Of a DNA stretch of 64,000 nt, positions 11,588 through 60,210 are shown piece by piece. The notes beneath the pieces are model-generated. The model worked only from the letters and a program-made list of their open reading frames with translations. It had not been told where the DNA came from and searched no databases. Within the stretch, counting starts at the first letter, position 1. Every line of letters starts with the position of its first letter. Source of the stretch: Cellulosimicrobium funkei (GTDB lineage Bacteria > Actinomycetota > Actinomycetes > Actinomycetales > Cellulomonadaceae); assembly GCF_001019615.1 (NCBI RefSeq), contig NZ_JNBQ01000004.1:1-64000 (forward strand), written 5' to 3'. The translations under genes and the position numbers were made by a program.

Positions 11588-13077
11588 GAGCGTTCCCGTC
11601 CGTCGTCGCGTCCGCCGGTCTCCCGGCCGGGGTCGAGGTCGAGGCGCAGGCTCGCCCGCACCTCCCAGCCGGTGCCGCTCGGCCCCGCCGACACCGTACC
11701 GCCGTAGACGGCCGCCCTCTCGCGCATCCCGATGATGCCGCGGCCCGTCCCGACCGGGACGCCGGGCGGGTGCTGCTCCGCGACCGACGGCGGCAGGCCG
11801 CGCTCGTCGACGCTCGCTCCCTCGCCCGGGCGGCGCCCGGCCTGGTTGACGACCCGTAGCTCGAGCCAGTCCGCGCCGGGCTCGGCGCGGCGCGAGACCT
11901 CGACGAGGACCATGGGGGACAGGGGCGCGTAGCGCAGCACGTTCGTCAGGGACTCCTGGACGATGCGGTGCGCGGTCTGGCGCAGCGCCGGCCCGGGCGT
12001 CGGCTGCGGGCCCGAGCGCACGAGGCGCACGGGCAGGCCCGCGGTGCGGAAGCGCTCGACGATCTCCTCGAGCTCGGGCGTCTCGTGCGCGGGCGCGAGC
12101 GGCACGGTCTGCTCGCCGCCGGGCTCGCGCAGGACGCCGAGCACGCGGCGCATGTCGGCGAGCGCCGCGCGCCCGGTCGCGGTGAGCTCGTCGAGCGCGT
12201 GGCCCGCGAGCTCGGGGTTCTTGGCGCCCGACGCCTTGGCACCGTCCGCGAGGGCGACCATGACCGTGAGGGAGTGCGCGACGACGTCGTGCATCTCGCG
12301 CGCGATGCGCGTGCGCTCGGCGGCGGCGGCGAGCTGTGCCTGCTGGTCGCGGTCGCGCGCGATGGAGTTGGCCCGCTCGACGAGGTCGGACACGTGCTGC
12401 CGGCGGGCGCGCACGTTCGTGCCGATCGCGAGGGCGATCAGGCACAGGACGGTCGTGACGAGGATGCCGACGATGCGGTCGACGGTCGCGCGACCGGGCT
12501 CGACGCTCTGGCGCAGGACCTCGCCGTCCGCGGTGGTGATGACGTCGTACCAGAGGAGGGTCGCGGCGGACAGGGCCAGGACGACGATCGCGAGCACGGG
12601 CCAGGCGATCCGCGACGGGCGCGAGGCCGCGACGGCGTACACCGCGAACATGGCCGCGACCTCGAACCCGGCGGTGTCGCCGGTGACCGCGATCGCCAGG
12701 ACGCCGAGGGCGGTGAGCCCGAGCGCGACGGTGACGGGTCGCCGGCGGCGCCAGTACAGGAGCGCCCCGCCGAGGAGGAAGAACACGAGCGACCACGGCG
12801 AGGAGCCGTGGGGCTGCTCCGCGAAGAGCGAGTAGAGGACCCCCGGCACCACGAAGATCGCGACGATGACCCAGTCCATGACGACGGGGTGCCGGGCGAA
12901 GTACCGACGCACCGGGCCGAGGCGCCGGGCGTCGAGCTCGGTGAACGGCTCGGGCGCGGGCCGCATCGCCAGCGGCGCGGGCGCGCCCGGAGCGGCGGCT
13001 CCCGGGCGCGCCACGGCCGACGCCGGACGAGCGGGCTGCTCGTCCGGCGTCGGCGGGGTGGTGGGCCGGGAGGTCAC
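11584..13077 (-). CDS. Sensor histidine kinase, HisKA_3 type
   Basis: A 497-residue kinase. A disordered Pro/Ala-rich N-terminus of about 60 residues precedes a membrane domain of 5-6 helices (residues 66-222) with almost no extracellular sensor loops. The dimerisation box has phospho-acceptor H263 ('REMHDVVAHSL'), and the HATPase_c region contains 'QESLTNVLRYA' and 'GRGIIGMRERAAVYGG'. This architecture is that of intramembrane-sensing kinases paired with ABC exporters. The GTG at 13077 overlaps the permease stop by 4 bases; a longer open frame upstream overlaps the permease and is discarded. Signal unknown, perhaps transport activity or membrane-active peptides. Confidence 0.88.
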   Translation of the reverse strand: MTSRPTTPPTPDEQPARPASAVARPGAAAPGAPAPLAMRPAPEPFTELDARRLGPVRRYFARHPVVMDWVIVAIFVVPGVLYSLFAEQPHGSSPWSLVFFLLGGALLYWRRRRPVTVALGLTALGVLAIAVTGDTAGFEVAAMFAVYAVAASRPSRIAWPVLAIVVLALSAATLLWYDVITTADGEVLRQSVEPGRATVDRIVGILVTTVLCLIALAIGTNVRARRQHVSDLVERANSIARDRDQQAQLAAAAERTRIAREMHDVVAHSLTVMVALADGAKASGAKNPELAGHALDELTATGRAALADMRRVLGVLREPGGEQTVPLAPAHETPELEEIVERFRTAGLPVRLVRSGPQPTPGPALRQTAHRIVQESLTNVLRYAPLSPMVLVEVSRRAEPGADWLELRVVNQAGRRPGEGASVDERGLPPSVAEQHPPGVPVGTGRGIIGMRERAAVYGGTVSAGPSGTGWEVRASLRLDLDPGRETGGRDDGRERS

Positions 13078-16203: not shown

Positions 16204-16722
16204 GTGGCGCGCAGCACCCGTGAACCGGCACCCGCGGCGGACCTTCCGCCGCGGGTGCCGGTCTTTCTCGCCGGTCTGGTCGTCGCCGCGGCGGCGATGC
16301 TCGGCGTCCAGGTCCTCTACATGGTCGTCTCGGGCGCGCCGCCCGCGTGGCTCGCGTTCGCGGCGCTCCTCATCCTGCTCAGCGTGCCGACCGCGGGCGC
16401 CGCGGTGGCCTGGCTCGGCACCCGGATCACGCGCGACGCGTCCGAGCGCCGGGCCGCGCTGGTCTTCGCCGCGCTCGGCCTCGTCGCGGGTGCGCTGTGG
16501 GGGTCGCTGCTCGCCGGCGGCCTCGCGCGGCAGCTCGCCGACGCCGGTGCGAGCGGCGGGGGAGCGCTGATCGCGGGCGCGGCCGCCGTCGTCGGTGTCA
16601 CCGCGGCGGTCGGTGCGGGGCTCGGTCGGCTCGCCGCGCGCGAGGCCTCCGACCGCCCGCTCCTCGTCGTCGTGCTCGGCGTCGTCGTGGTCCTCGTCGC
16701 GCTCCGGGGCCTCTTCGGCTGA
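16204..16722 (+). CDS. Hypothetical membrane protein
   Basis: A 172-residue protein with four hydrophobic helices (about residues 19-41, 46-70, 84-105 and 118-140, plus a final one ending 'VVVLVALRGLFG'). It has short Arg-rich loops and no charged residues in the helices. GTG 16204 lies two bases after the BI-1-like stop, implying an operon. I do not recognise a family; it resembles small actinobacterial integral membrane proteins without assigned function. Confidence 0.65.
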   Translation: MARSTREPAPAADLPPRVPVFLAGLVVAAAAMLGVQVLYMVVSGAPPAWLAFAALLILLSVPTAGAAVAWLGTRITRDASERRAALVFAALGLVAGALWGSLLAGGLARQLADAGASGGGALIAGAAAVVGVTAAVGAGLGRLAAREASDRPLLVVVLGVVVVLVALRGLFG

Positions 16723-32462: not shown

Positions 32463-32504
32463 GAGGAGCGGCCCCCGATCCGCGGGGATCGGGGGCCGCT
32501 CCTC
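32463..32504. terminator. Terminator hairpin after msrA
   Basis: 18-base perfect arms (32463-32480 and 32487-32504) with a 6-base loop lie between the msrA stop and the downstream aldo/keto reductase start on the same strand. On the plus strand they are followed by TTCTCT. This separates the two transcription units. Confidence 0.75.
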
Positions 32505-47609: not shown

Positions 47610-47665
47610 GTGGGCGTGAGACGGGCCCGGTTCTCGACCGAGAACCGGGCCCGTCTCACGCCCAC
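47610..47665. terminator. Very strong bidirectional terminator
   Basis: Two perfectly complementary 26-base arms (47610-47635 and 47640-47665) with a 4-base loop lie between convergent mntP and ridA-like genes. It is the longest perfect stem in the window. Confidence 0.82.
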
Positions 47666-54346: not shown

Positions 54347-54681
54347 CGTCGTCGTGCCCTCCCGCGGTCGCCGAACCCGGGGTCGTCGGCACGGCGGGGG
54401 TCGAGCCCGCCGACATCCCCGGGCTCGGCGCGGTCGGGGTCCGTCGGGCGCAAGGTGGCGTAGGTCTCCCGACGTCGAGAGATAGCGTTTCGATAACGGC
54501 GCTGTCAGGTTCTTGCGCGCATCCTGTCGTCTAGTTACAGTCTTCCACGACGGCGCGGTCGGCACCCGGTGCACGACGGCCGTCCCGGGCGCCCCACCCG
54601 GTCGGAACGAACGCAGTGCGCAGCAGCAGGCGAGACACGGCCCCGGCACGTGCAGCCCACGAACTCACGGAAGAGGACGCG
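54347..54681. promoter_or_regulatory. Leader region of the alpha-glucosidase/importer operon
   Basis: About 335 bases without a convincing gene. It holds CGTT-TCGAT-AACG (54486-54498), a LacI-type palindrome in an AT-richer patch, then CTTGCGCGCA (54512-54521), sharing a half-site with the LacI promoter, then a Gly/Arg-coding stretch leading to GAGGA before GTG 54682. Confidence 0.5.
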
Positions 54682-56442
54682 GTGAGCAACGATCACCCCC
54701 GAGTCGCCGACGGCGAACCCACCCCCGACGCGACCCTCGCGCAGGCGGTGCGGGAGCCGGCGGCGGCGTCGCCCGACTGGTGGCGCAGCGCCGTGATCTA
54801 CCAGGTGTACGTGCGCAGCTTCGCGGACGGCAACGGCGACGGCACGGGCGACCTCGCGGGCGTGCGCCAGCACCTCACCTATCTCCGCGACCTCGGGGTC
54901 GACGCGATCTGGTTCACCCCCTGGTACGTGTCCCCGCTCGCGGACGGCGGCTACGACGTCGCGGACTACCGCGCGATCGACCCGCAGTTCGGCACGCTGG
55001 CCGAGGCGGAGCGCCTCATCGCGGAGGCCCGCGAGCTCGGGATCCGCACGATCATCGACGTCGTCCCCAACCACGTCTCGTCCGAGCACGAGTGGTTCAA
55101 GGCGGCCCTCGCGGCCGGCCCCGGGTCGCCCGAGCGCGAGCGCTTCTGGTTCCACCCGGGCAAGGGCGACGACGGCTCCGAGATCCCGACGCGCTGGGTC
55201 TCCGAGTTCCAGGGCAGCACGTGGACGCGCACGACGAACCCCGACGGCACGCCCGGCGAGTGGTACCTGCACGTGTTCGCGCCCGAGCAGCCGGACCTCA
55301 ACTGGAACCACCCCGACGTGCGTCGGGAGCACGAGGACATCCTGCGGTTCTGGTTCGACCGCGGCGCCGCGGGCATCCGCATCGACTCGGCGGCCCAGCT
55401 CGTCAAGGACCCGGCGCTGCCCGAGGTCCCGGCCCACCCCGGCCCGGGCGAGCACCCGCACGTCGACCGCGACGAGCTCCACGACATCTACCGCGGCTGG
55501 CGCGCCGTCGCGGACTCCTACGAGGAGCCCCGCGTGCTCGTGGGCGAGGTGTGGCTCGCGGACCGTGCCCGGTTCGCCCAGTACCTGCGCCCGGACGAGA
55601 TGCACACGGCGTTCAACTTCGACTTCATGGCGCGCCCGTGGGACGCGAAGGCGCTGCGCGAGTCGGTCCAGACGACGCTCGACGCGCACGCCCCGGTCGC
55701 GGCGCCCGCGACGTGGGTGCTCTCGAACCACGACGTGACGCGTCCCGTGACGCGGTACGGGCGCGAGGACAGCTCGTTCGCGTTCGCGACCAAGCGCTTC
55801 GGCACGCCGACGGACCTGGAGACGGGCCGCCGTCGGGCCCGCGCCGCGGCGCTGCTCTCGGCGGCGCTGCCGGGGTCGCTCTACCTCTACCAGGGCGACG
55901 AGCTCGGCCTGCCCGAGGTCGAGGACCTGCCGCTCGACGCGATCCAGGACCCCATGCACTTCCGCTCCGAGGGCGTCGACCCCGGTCGCGACGGCTGCCG
56001 CGTCCCCCTCCCGTGGACGCGCGGCGGCACGAGCAACGGGTTCGGGCCCGACGGCGGCGCGCAGCCCTGGCTGCCCCAGCCCGCGGGCTGGGGCGAGGTG
56101 TCCGTCGAGGCGCAGGCCGACGACGAGACGTCGATGCTCGCGCTCTACCGCCGCGTGCTCGCGACGCGGCGCGCGGAGCCCGCGCTGCACGGCGAGGCGT
56201 TCCGCTGGCTCGACTCCCTCGATGGGGTCGCGCTCGGAGACGACGTGCTCGCGTTCGTCCGCGAGGACACCCGCGGCGACGACGACCGCGCGGTCACGTG
56301 CGTCGTCAACCTCGGGACCGAGGACGTGCCGCTGCCCGCGGACGCGGAGGTCCTCCTCCACAGCGGCACCCCGCACGGGGCGGACGCGTCGGAGCCACCG
56401 ACGCGCCTCGCCCCCGACACCGCGGTCTGGCTGCGCGCCTGA
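54682..56442 (+). CDS. Alpha-glucosidase, GH13 family
   Basis: A 586-residue GH13 enzyme of the oligo-1,6-glucosidase/alpha-glucosidase group. Conserved regions: 'DVVPNHVS' (I), 'GIRIDSAAQL' with nucleophile D235 (II), 'VLVGEVWLA' with acid/base E289 (III) and 'VLSNHDVTR' with D351 (IV), followed by the C-terminal beta-sandwich. It cleaves imported maltooligosaccharides or similar glucosides in the cytoplasm; no signal peptide. GTG 54682 (GAGGA upstream) is preferred to an in-frame ATG at 54616. Confidence 0.88.
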   Translation: MSNDHPRVADGEPTPDATLAQAVREPAAASPDWWRSAVIYQVYVRSFADGNGDGTGDLAGVRQHLTYLRDLGVDAIWFTPWYVSPLADGGYDVADYRAIDPQFGTLAEAERLIAEARELGIRTIIDVVPNHVSSEHEWFKAALAAGPGSPERERFWFHPGKGDDGSEIPTRWVSEFQGSTWTRTTNPDGTPGEWYLHVFAPEQPDLNWNHPDVRREHEDILRFWFDRGAAGIRIDSAAQLVKDPALPEVPAHPGPGEHPHVDRDELHDIYRGWRAVADSYEEPRVLVGEVWLADRARFAQYLRPDEMHTAFNFDFMARPWDAKALRESVQTTLDAHAPVAAPATWVLSNHDVTRPVTRYGREDSSFAFATKRFGTPTDLETGRRRARAAALLSAALPGSLYLYQGDELGLPEVEDLPLDAIQDPMHFRSEGVDPGRDGCRVPLPWTRGGTSNGFGPDGGAQPWLPQPAGWGEVSVEAQADDETSMLALYRRVLATRRAEPALHGEAFRWLDSLDGVALGDDVLAFVREDTRGDDDRAVTCVVNLGTEDVPLPADAEVLLHSGTPHGADASEPPTRLAPDTAVWLRA

Positions 56443-56559: not shown

Positions 56560-57960
56560 ATGAAGTCCACACGTCAGGCGATCGCCTTCACCCTCGCGGG
56601 GGCGCTCGCGATCAGCACGCTCGCCGCGTGCTCGAGCGGCGGCTCGGGCAGCGACGACGAGAGCAGCGGCTCGGACGGCGACGGGAAGGTCACCCTCAAG
56701 GTGGTCTCCCTCCTCCCGGGCTCCGAGCAGGAGGCGATCGACGCCTTCAACGCCCAGGTCGAGGAGTTCGAGACCGCGAACCCCGACATCGACATCGTGC
56801 CGGAGGAGTACGAGTGGAAGGCGACGACGTTCGCCCCCCAGCTCGCCGGCGGCACGCTGCCCGACGTCTTCGAGATCCCGTTCACCGACGCGAAGACGCT
56901 CGTCGAGAACGGCCAGCTCGCGGACCTCGACGAGCAGTTCCGCACCCTGCCCTACGCCGACAAGTTCAACCCGGCCATCATCGAGGCCGGGACGGGCGCC
57001 GACGGCCACGTCTACGCGATCCCCGCGAAGAACGTGTACGGCGTGGGCCTGCACTACAACCGTGCGCTGTTCGAGTCCGCCGGGCTCGACCCCGACCAGC
57101 CGCCGACCACGTGGGACGAGGTCCGCGAGGACGCGAAGAAGATCGCGGACGCGAACCCCGGCGTGGCGGGCTACATGCAGATGTCGCAGAACAACACGGG
57201 CGGCTGGCAGCTCACGGTCAACACGTTCGCGCGCGGCGGCCGCACGCAGGAGGTCGCGGACGACGGCACGGCCACCTCGACGCTGACCAACGACGGCACC
57301 AAGGAAGCGCTCGAGTGGCTCAAGGCCATGCGCTGGGAGGACAACTCCCTCGGGAGCAACTTCCTCCTCGACTGGGGCACGATGAACCAGGCGTTCGCCG
57401 CCGGCCAGGTCGCGATGTACACGTCGGGCTCCGACGTCTTCACGTCGCTCGTCCAGACGAACGCGATCGACCCCTCCACCTACGGTCTCGCGGCGCTCCC
57501 GCTCGAGGGCGACGACGCGGGCGTCCTCACCGGCGGCACGCTCGCCGCGATGCCGGCGAACGTGGACGAGTCGAAGAAGGAGGCCGCGATCAAGTGGATC
57601 GACTTCTTCTACCTCGGGAAGCTCGTCGACGAGAAGCGCGCCGTCGCCGACGCCGAGACGCTCGTCGCGAACGACCAGCCCGTGGGCACCCCGGTCCTGC
57701 CGATGTTCTCCCAGGAGCAGTACGAGCAGAACCAGGAGTGGATCAAGGACTACATCAACGTCCCGCTCGACCAGATGACGAGCTACACGGACACGATGTT
57801 CGACCTGCCGCTCGTCGGTGAGCCGTCGCAGAAGACGCAGGAGATCTACGCCCTGCTCGACCCGGTCGTCCAGGCCGTCCTGACGGACGAGAACGCCGAC
57901 GTGGACGCGCTGCTGGAGCAGGCGAACACCGAGGCGCAGGCCCTGCTCGACCAGGGCTGA
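56560..57960 (+). CDS. Sugar ABC transporter substrate-binding lipoprotein
   Basis: A 466-residue extracellular solute-binding protein (family 1). The signal peptide ends in lipobox 'LAAC' with lipidated C24, followed by a Gly/Ser/Asp linker and the two-lobed binding fold ('TLKVVSLLPGSEQEAIDAF', 'LADLDEQFRTLPYADKFNP', 'FAAGQVAMYTSGSDVF', 'IKWIDFFYLGKLVD'). AGGAG precedes ATG 56560; a GTG two codons earlier overlaps that site. It captures an oligosaccharide, probably an alpha-glucoside given the neighbouring enzyme, for the two permeases downstream. Confidence 0.9.
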   Translation: MKSTRQAIAFTLAGALAISTLAACSSGGSGSDDESSGSDGDGKVTLKVVSLLPGSEQEAIDAFNAQVEEFETANPDIDIVPEEYEWKATTFAPQLAGGTLPDVFEIPFTDAKTLVENGQLADLDEQFRTLPYADKFNPAIIEAGTGADGHVYAIPAKNVYGVGLHYNRALFESAGLDPDQPPTTWDEVREDAKKIADANPGVAGYMQMSQNNTGGWQLTVNTFARGGRTQEVADDGTATSTLTNDGTKEALEWLKAMRWEDNSLGSNFLLDWGTMNQAFAAGQVAMYTSGSDVFTSLVQTNAIDPSTYGLAALPLEGDDAGVLTGGTLAAMPANVDESKKEAAIKWIDFFYLGKLVDEKRAVADAETLVANDQPVGTPVLPMFSQEQYEQNQEWIKDYINVPLDQMTSYTDTMFDLPLVGEPSQKTQEIYALLDPVVQAVLTDENADVDALLEQANTEAQALLDQG

Positions 57961-57968
57961 CGCCCCGC

Positions 57969-57999
57969 GGTCGCGCGGCCCGCACCGGGCCGCGCGACC
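57969..57999 (+). terminator. Stem-loop 1 of three between binding-protein and permease genes
   Basis: 13-base perfect arms (57969-57981, 57987-57999), 5-base loop, 8 bases after the binding-protein stop. No T-run follows, so a partial terminator or 3' stabiliser is likelier than a full stop. Confidence 0.7.
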
Positions 58000-58007
58000 C
58001 GCAGACC

Positions 58008-58044
58008 CGGGTCGGCCGGCAGCGCCCCCTCGCCGGCCGACCCG
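58008..58044 (+). terminator. Stem-loop 2 of three
   Basis: 13-base perfect arms (58008-58020, 58032-58044) around an 11-base loop, starting 8 bases after stem-loop 1. Confidence 0.7.
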
Positions 58045-58053
58045 TACCCCGCC

Positions 58054-58093
58054 GGTGCCCGACGGCGCGACGCACCTCGCGTCGTCGGGCACC
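58054..58093 (+). terminator. Stem-loop 3 of three
   Basis: 16-base arms (58054-58069, 58078-58093) with one G-U wobble and an 8-base loop, ending 28 bases before the first permease start. Confidence 0.7.
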
Positions 58094-58121
58094 TCCCCAC
58101 CGCACCGAAGGACGTTCGCCC

Positions 58122-59087
58122 GTGACCGCCACCACCGCCCCGCCGCGACGGGGACCCGCCTCCCACGCGCGGGCCGACCGCGACGGCCGACGCCGCAGCC
58201 CCGTGACGTGGTTCCGTGGCGGCGGCCTGAGCAACCTCGTCTTCCTGCTGCCGCTCATCCTGATCTTCGGCGTCTTCTCGTGGTTCCCCATCGTGCGCGC
58301 GGTGATCATGAGCTTCCAGGAGACGAACCTCGTGAGCGACCCGACGTTCGTCGGGCTCGACAACTTCCGCCAGGTGCTGAACGACCCGCTCCTGTGGAAG
58401 GCCGTGAAGAACACGCTGTACTTCGCGTTCCTCGCCCTGCTGTTCGGGTACCCGATCCCGCTGGTCGCGGCCGTGCTGATGCGCGAGGTCCGCCGGGCAC
58501 GCGGGCTGTACTCCGCGCTCGCCTACCTCCCGGTCGTCGTGCCGCCGGTCGTCGCCGTGCTGCTGTGGAAGTTCTTCTACAACGGCAGCCCGACCGGTGT
58601 GTTCAACACGATCCTCGGCTGGGTCGGCCTCGGCCCGTACCCGTGGCTCCAGGACGCCTCGACGGCGATGCCCTCGCTCGTGCTCGCCGCCACGTGGGCC
58701 GGCGCGGGCGGGACGATCATCATCTACCTCGCCGCCCTGACGAGCGTGCCGCCCGAGCTCTACGACGCCTCCGAGGTGGACGGCGCGGGGCTGTGGCGCA
58801 AGATCTGGCACGTGACGCTCCCGGCGCTGCGCGGCGTCCTGTTCATCACGCTGATCCTCCAGGTGATCGGCACGGCGCAGGTCTTCCTCGAGCCCTACCT
58901 GTTCACGGGCGGCGGGCCGAACAACGCGACGCTGACGATCCTGCTGCTCATCTACCGCTACGCCTTCCAGAACAGCCTCGGCGGCGACTACGGGGCGGCG
59001 ACCGCGCTGTCGATCATGCTCGCGGCCGTCCTCGCCGTCTTCTCGATCCTCTACTTCCGGCTCACCCGGTCCTGGAGCACGTCATGA
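58122..59087 (+). CDS. Sugar ABC transporter permease 1 (MalF-like)
   Basis: A 321-residue CUT1 permease with six TM helices after a basic 25-residue start. The EAA loop that docks the ATPase is 'YDASEVDGAGLWRKIWHVTLP'. It also has 'FVGLDNFRQVLNDPLLWKA' and the C-terminal 'TGGGPNNATLTILLLIY' typical of MalF/UgpA types. GTG 58122. The stop overlaps the second permease start. The ATP-binding subunit is missing and is probably a shared MsiK-type ATPase encoded elsewhere. Confidence 0.9.
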   Translation: MTATTAPPRRGPASHARADRDGRRRSPVTWFRGGGLSNLVFLLPLILIFGVFSWFPIVRAVIMSFQETNLVSDPTFVGLDNFRQVLNDPLLWKAVKNTLYFAFLALLFGYPIPLVAAVLMREVRRARGLYSALAYLPVVVPPVVAVLLWKFFYNGSPTGVFNTILGWVGLGPYPWLQDASTAMPSLVLAATWAGAGGTIIIYLAALTSVPPELYDASEVDGAGLWRKIWHVTLPALRGVLFITLILQVIGTAQVFLEPYLFTGGGPNNATLTILLLIYRYAFQNSLGGDYGAATALSIMLAAVLAVFSILYFRLTRSWSTS

Positions 59088-60145
59088 CTCTCTCGCCCAC
59101 CGACAACCCGAGCGAGATCGGCGTCGTCTCGCAGGACTCCGCGGCCGCGACGGACGCCGTCGACGACCCGGACGGCACGTCCCGCCGCGCCGCCGCGGCG
59201 AGCCGCTCCCGGCGCGAGTCCGACCGCCGCAGGGTGCGCGCTCGCCGTCGCAAGGCGCTCGACGGCGTCGAGGACCGCGGCGCGCTCTCCGAGGCCGACT
59301 GGCGCCGCCCGTCGATCCGGTGGGGGATGGGCACCACGCACGTCCTGCTGCTCGTGATCCTCGTCGTCGCGGGGCTCGGCCCGATGCTGCTGCTCGCGAA
59401 GTACGCGGTCACGCCGACGCAGGACATCCTGCGCACGCCGATGGCGATCTTCCCGAACGGCATCGCGTGGGACAACCTCGACAAGGCGTGGAACGACGTC
59501 CAGGTCAGCCGGTACTTCCTCAACACGATCTGGCTCGCGGTCGGGTCGTGGGCGTCCCAGATCCTCGTCGCGACGACGGGCGGCTACGCGCTGTCCGTCC
59601 TGCGGCCCCGGTACGGGAAGGTCGTGCAGGCGCTCGTCCTGTCGACCATGTTCGTCCCGGCGATCGTCCTGCTCGTCCCGCTGTACCTGACGATCCTCGA
59701 CCCGCCGCTGCTGGGCCGGTCGCTCATCAACAGCTTCTGGGCCGTGTGGCTGCCGGCGGGCGCGAGCGCGTTCAACGTGCTGCTCGTCCAGCGGTTCTTC
59801 GACAGCCTCCCGCGCGAGGTGTTCGAGGCCGCGCGCATGGACGGCGCCGGGCCGTACCGGCTGTTCTGGTCGGTCGTCCTGCCGATGTCCAAGCCGATCA
59901 TCGGCGTCGTCTCGGTGTTCGCGGTCATCGCGGCCTGGAAGGACTTCCTCTGGCCGCTGCTCGTCCTCAAGGACCCCGCGATCCAGCCGCTGTCCGTGCG
60001 CCTGCCGTCGATCGAGGCGTCGACCGACCTCGGCGTGTTCCTCGCGGCGCTCGCGATCTCCACGCTCATCCCGGTCGCGCTGTTCCTGGTGTTCCAGCGC
60101 ATGTTCCTCCAGGGCGCCGGCCTCGGAGGAGCGGTCAAGGGCTGA
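59084..60145 (+). CDS. Sugar ABC transporter permease 2 (MalG-like)
   Basis: A 353-residue CUT1 permease. An unusual 75-residue N-terminal extension, acidic then very Arg-rich ('RRRVRARRRKALDG'), precedes six TM helices. The EAA loop is 'FEAARMDGAGPYRLFWSVVLPMSKP', as in MalG. ATG 59084 overlaps the permease 1 stop (ATGA). With permease 1 and the lipoprotein it forms the importer; the extension may interact with membrane lipids or the ATPase. Confidence 0.9.
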   Translation: MTLSPTDNPSEIGVVSQDSAAATDAVDDPDGTSRRAAAASRSRRESDRRRVRARRRKALDGVEDRGALSEADWRRPSIRWGMGTTHVLLLVILVVAGLGPMLLLAKYAVTPTQDILRTPMAIFPNGIAWDNLDKAWNDVQVSRYFLNTIWLAVGSWASQILVATTGGYALSVLRPRYGKVVQALVLSTMFVPAIVLLVPLYLTILDPPLLGRSLINSFWAVWLPAGASAFNVLLVQRFFDSLPREVFEAARMDGAGPYRLFWSVVLPMSKPIIGVVSVFAVIAAWKDFLWPLLVLKDPAIQPLSVRLPSIEASTDLGVFLAALAISTLIPVALFLVFQRMFLQGAGLGGAVKG

Positions 60146-60165: not shown

Positions 60166-60210
60166 ACGACTTTGGTGTCGTTATCCCGCGGATAACGACA
60201 CCAAAGTCGT
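60166..60210. terminator. Bidirectional terminator after importer operon
   Basis: 20-base perfect arms (60166-60185 and 60191-60210) with a 5-base loop, between the convergent permease and phosphatase genes. Confidence 0.8.

Follow-up and report, generated by a model that had tools for sequence, protein, structure and literature searches.

Why should three stem-loops stand in a row between the solute-binding protein (SBP) gene and the first permease gene of a single sugar importer, and what might they do there? The question is raised by the window, a stretch of 64,000 nucleotides from the soil bacterium Cellulosimicrobium funkei. The genes and elements concerned are the following.

54616-56442, + strand: GH13 alpha-glucosidase/amylase-family gene, presumed first gene of the operon (Pfam Alpha-amylase, E 9.3e-100)
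56560-57960, + strand: sugar ABC importer solute-binding lipoprotein, SBP (Pfam SBP_bac_8/SBP_bac_1; lipobox-like ...LAAC in the sequence)
57969-57999, + strand: stem-loop 1 (SL1), 13-14 bp, loop GCACC/CAC, variable among species
58008-58044, + strand: stem-loop 2 (SL2), 13 bp plus a small bulged top
58054-58093, + strand: stem-loop 3 (SL3), 16 Watson-Crick pairs plus one G-U, hexaloop CGCACC
58108-58112, + strand: Shine-Dalgarno-like AAGGA of the permease 1 gene (from sequence)
58122-59087, + strand: permease 1 (BPD_transp_1), GTG start (Pfam PF00528, E 1.8e-19)
59084-60145, + strand: permease 2, overlapping ATGA start (from sequence; PF00528 at 59594-60106)

Genes are ordered GH13 glucosidase, SBP, permease, permease, with a LacI-type regulator gene upstream, and the gap from the SBP stop codon (ending at 57960) to the GTG of permease 1 (58122) measures 161 nt. 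The first-pass annotation had described stems of 13, 13 and 16 bp that nearly fill this gap inside an importer operon. Both points were borne out. The neighbours carry Pfam SBP and PF00528 domains, and the segment 57930-58130 folds with a minimum free energy (MFE) of -131 kcal/mol compared with -100 +/- 4.3 in dinucleotide shuffles (z = -7.2), none of 200 shuffles being as good. SL1, SL2 and SL3 are independent folds, and neither the MFE nor the centroid structure shows an antiterminator that would compete with them. Per-base folding at the GH13-SBP and permease-permease junctions is half as strong as in the SBP-permease gap. No Rfam family matches within 57961-58121, even at E <= 1.

To place these figures against a background, 860 kb of the same genome were surveyed for hairpins of 11 or more Watson-Crick pairs. 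The survey yielded 609 hairpins, 27 doublets and only 3 clusters of at least three, one of which is the present locus. Simulated sequence of 400 kb with the same dinucleotide make-up contained no hairpin clusters, not even of two. The three stem-loops are real and far beyond chance.

Long hairpins occur elsewhere in the window as well. The longest perfect one (47610-47665) has a 26-bp stem and a 4-nt loop, and further long ones lie at 13016-13054, 16224-16262 and 32463-32504. Between the convergent permease 2 and phosphatase genes, the 21-bp stem ACGACTTTGGTGTCGTTATCC, closed by a 3-nt loop (60166-60210), resembles a bidirectional terminator; its GC content is far below that of the SBP hairpins.

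Conservation of the stems was followed in 15 Cellulosimicrobium species, the window's own included, all of which possess the orthologous SBP-permease pair. SL2 and SL3 are present in every one of them. When their structure is laid on the alignment, 99.4% of cells are paired, and ten pairs have changed on both sides (7 of the 15 pairs of SL2 and 3 pairs of SL3). None of 500 shuffles reaches this covariation, and structures slid along the alignment show no pairs changed on both sides, or nearly none. Since ten pairs are compensatory, it is pairing rather than sequence that is maintained. SL1 behaves differently: nine species have it, L003 only weakly, and the other six have lost it or retain a degraded form (L005, L010, L011, L012, L013, L014). 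Conservation thus holds for two of the three stems, and the SL2-SL3 pair, of which the triple is an upper extreme, is to be regarded as the conserved unit. One entry filed under Sphaerisporangium cinnabarinum ATCC 31213 (L351, QAPD01000027.1) carries the locus and clusters with Cellulosimicrobium, to which its protein identity is 97%; the genome is probably mislabelled.

These data bear on the view that the array is a REP/BIME-like repeat at the DNA level, or that it arose by chance in GC-rich DNA. High GC content is in its favour, as is a single further occurrence of SL3-like stem arms in the genome: a hairpin at C1:424131-424179 of G000 (L373, about 632-680) shares the outer 14-15 bp arms of the SL3 stem (GGTGCCCGACGGCGC / GCGCCGTCGGGCACC) and has a different loop. 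Against it, covariation preserves pairing and not sequence, simulated sequence lacks hairpin clusters, and BLAST of the host genome recovered no further full copy of SL2-SL3, only the pair itself and partial palindrome matches. We therefore regard this view as highly improbable. SL2-SL3 was also considered as a mobile module and rejected, since a BLAST search of 297 genomes from the order brought up nothing beyond short palindromes of similar appearance. Stem arms resembling those of SL3 were matched in further genera of this order.

Beyond Cellulosimicrobium, this gap in most cases contains a single hairpin (L017-L022, L024, L359, L360, L367, L368, L370), and in other cases little or no hairpin or gap sequence (L023, L361-L364). 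The latter orthologues indicate that operons of this type can do without the element. In Actinotalea (L367), the single hairpin aligns with SL2; GCGCCCCCT is kept at its loop and the stem has changed.

The triple array had been proposed to be a special graded or attenuating device. This found no support: six of 15 species lack SL1 or have it in degraded form, related genera have one hairpin or none, and no U-tract follows any of the stems, the 3' flanks of SL1, SL2 and SL3 being CGCAGACC, TACCCCGC and TCCCCACC, respectively. An attenuator or graded switch, in which the number of hairpins or alternative pairings would set a regulated SBP:permease ratio, could account for three tandem stems and for their differing number among species. 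Nevertheless, the stems fold separately with no antiterminator to compete with them, SL1 comes and goes among close species and is dispensable over short evolutionary time, and the permease Shine-Dalgarno sequence lies outside the stems. Such a switch is accordingly very unlikely. The last point makes it unlikely, too, that SL3 hinders translation by occluding the permease start, though local pairing is mixed (predicted pairing probability of 0.86 for the Gs of this Shine-Dalgarno sequence and 0.04-0.13 for its As). CGAAGGA, the Shine-Dalgarno region of permease 1, is invariant across the 15 species.

Is the arrangement peculiar to this operon? Inspection of the 3' flanks of all 27 SBP_bac_1 genes of the host genome revealed that most are followed by one or two strong hairpins. 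One script, which counted hairpins of 10 or more pairs starting at most 60 nt from the stop codon, was then applied throughout. In five congeners, 80 of 107 SBP genes are followed by such a hairpin; in two other genera, 25 of 40 are. The same script detected them at 4 of 30 permease-gene ends and 247 of 3000 random positions (8%), so that SBP genes differ from both controls (Fisher 1e-9 and 7e-59, respectively), which match intra-operon gaps imperfectly, as permease ends often adjoin the next gene. Hairpins are a clade-wide rule tied to SBP genes. Doublets were found behind 12 of the 107 genes, and the present locus is the only triplet. Two further SBP doublets, traced through the genus, keep their fold in most orthologues despite differing sequences. 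Because hairpins stand behind most SBP genes, the triple array represents the high end of an arrangement ordinary for the clade. Stem-loops of this kind downstream of SBP genes have been put to the test in Clostridia and are predicted for E. coli; here they are near-general and backed by covariation in a high-GC actinobacterial genus in which they lack U-tracts.

Long hairpins with arms of the GAGGTAGAACC/GAGGTAGAGCC type were seen at two unrelated places, at 218000-218070 of G000 C2 (in L148) and after the SBP stop codon in L117. They may represent a palindromic repeat dispersed within the genus.

As to function, the gap probably serves the SBP cistron as a hairpin element at its 3' end, raising SBP over permease mRNA by partial termination or stabilisation. 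Most transcripts would stop at one of SL1-SL3 or be trimmed back to it, either through U-less (I-shaped) or Rho-assisted partial termination, or through processing within the C-rich linker that follows. 3' exonucleases would then be halted by the stable GC stem and SBP mRNA would accumulate above permease mRNA, the fraction read through feeding the permeases; tandem hairpins may serve as redundant or additive stops. That stem-loops downstream of SBP genes can raise SBP over translocator transcript, as the first-pass annotation had assumed, is published (PMC9045158), and judged by this precedent, partial termination or stabilisation with an SBP>permease ratio is the most likely outcome. A literature search found no transcriptome study on Cellulosimicrobium.

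A plain tandem transcription terminator, either U-less or Rho-dependent with later trimming of the hairpins, would require no role in RNA stability. The long GC stems and the C-rich linkers that lie between and 3' of them would suit it, and structured 3' ends lacking U are common in a high-GC actinomycete (PMC8269248). On the other hand, a scan for canonical promoters and terminators called no terminator-like site in the gap. Nor did it call a promoter-like site there, which supports the first-pass reading. As the permeases have no promoter-like site of their own, full termination would starve them. We consider a plain terminator a real possibility, short of probable, and retain the stoichiometry-setting 3' element as the preferred reading.

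The stems had been called unrelated in sequence. This is true of the stems themselves and not of all loops. In the window, SL2 has one extra C near its loop; in other congeners it has a clean 15-bp form with the hexaloop CGCCCC, so that SL2 in this form and SL3 (CGCACC) both bear a CGCNCC hexaloop. Across the 15 species none of the 12 columns of these two loops varies, compared with 21 of 64 stem columns (Fisher 0.02-0.03, calculated post hoc). The CGCCCC hexaloop also occurs behind three other SBP genes of the host genome (L094, L101, L113). The four SBPs are only 25-33% identical to one another over their alignable part, and their hairpin stems are dissimilar. When the motif taken from the window was tested on the remaining 12 hexaloop hairpins in SBP gaps of this genome, these three matches corresponded to p of about 3e-5 by composition. 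In the five congeners, CGCCCC is the loop of 10 of 49 SBP-gap hexaloop hairpins and every other loop appears at most twice, although orthologues among them are not independent. Orthologues of L101 keep the CGCCCC loop on a changed stem, and the motif is also contained in the GCGCCCCCT loop of the Actinotalea hairpin. CGCCCC as a loop favoured genome-wide was rejected: only two of 706 perfect hexaloop hairpins of 7 or more bp in 860 kb have it, close to the expected 1.8, and both are located behind SBP genes.

These observations raise the idea that the loops are functional, a trans-acting factor (an RNA-binding protein or G-rich small RNA) reading CGCCCC, perhaps also CGCACC, and coordinating stability or read-through behind several SBP genes. 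Invariance of both loops over varying stems, recurrence of CGCCCC behind four divergent SBP families, its lead among congener loops, its restriction to SBP genes in the background and its persistence where stems have altered all speak for such reading. However, the motif was picked after having been seen at the window's locus, loop invariance taken alone reaches p of about 0.02-0.03, CGCCCC is near to what C-rich sense-strand composition favours, and it is absent from the 14 hexaloop hairpins of two other genera. We therefore offer functional loops as a tentative, rather unlikely suggestion. It is likewise doubtful that CGCCCC (perhaps CGCACC) is a recognition signal common to several unlinked Cellulosimicrobium SBP operons, through which a putative RNA-binding protein or small RNA would set SBP over permease for several importers at once. 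An effect of the C-rich sense strand is a possible and more sober alternative to a recognition site. The shared loop might be the only part likely to surprise a specialist; if it were read by a factor, 3' UTR hairpin loops would form the basis of a regulon.

Comparison with known systems places the preferred reading, a 3' element setting SBP over permease, among described types. In E. coli, REP stem-loops between malE and malF are held to stabilise the upstream mRNA. They resemble the present hairpins in standing 3' of a binding-protein cistron, but belong to a dispersed repeat family, whereas SL2-SL3 lacks the many genomic copies typical of REPs and BIMEs.

In operons subject to selective RNA processing and stabilisation (SRPS), for example cip-cel, transcripts differ in level owing to hairpins at the 3' ends of their cistrons (PMC4423207, PMC8219983). 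A hairpin kept by selection at the 3' end of a cistron is found here too, as compensatory changes in SL2 and SL3 indicate. An SRPS operon would also have an endonucleolytic processing site between its cistrons; the Cellulosimicrobium element is known from sequence.

Among 535 mapped 3' ends with strong structure in Streptomyces clavuligerus, 353 have no U tract; these were interpreted as I-shaped terminators or as Rho ends after trimming (PMC8269248). They share with the present stems GC richness, lack of a U tract and a high-GC actinomycete host, but are mapped transcript ends in general, not specifically SBP-permease junctions (PMC8269248).

The closest counterpart comes from Ruminiclostridium cellulolyticum, where single SBP-downstream stem-loops placed between two reporters ended 20.7-96.1% of transcripts prematurely (PMC9045158). 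Hairpins behind SBP genes were there described as partial internal terminators or 3'-end stabilisers raising SBP over translocator, and the authors (2022) tie them to SBP excess and 3'-end protection; their Type IV hairpins have hardly any U-rich regions (PMC9045158). As in that system, the stems of Cellulosimicrobium have long GC arms, lie directly 3' of the SBP gene and before the translocator genes of an importer operon, and recur behind many SBP genes of the genome. In contrast, the clostridial elements are single stem-loops with no further structures, whose tails mostly contain some U, and their termination was measured; those of Cellulosimicrobium, recognised at the sequence level, comprise two to three tandem stems with conserved loops, two stems being kept in 15 species. 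Since the gap contains no U-tract, the best-tested mechanism, intrinsic termination with a U-rich tail, misses one part here. We infer that the array belongs to an already described kind of stoichiometry element, as a tandem variant without U-tracts, and Cellulosimicrobium offers a clean place for asking how U-less hairpins set operon stoichiometry.
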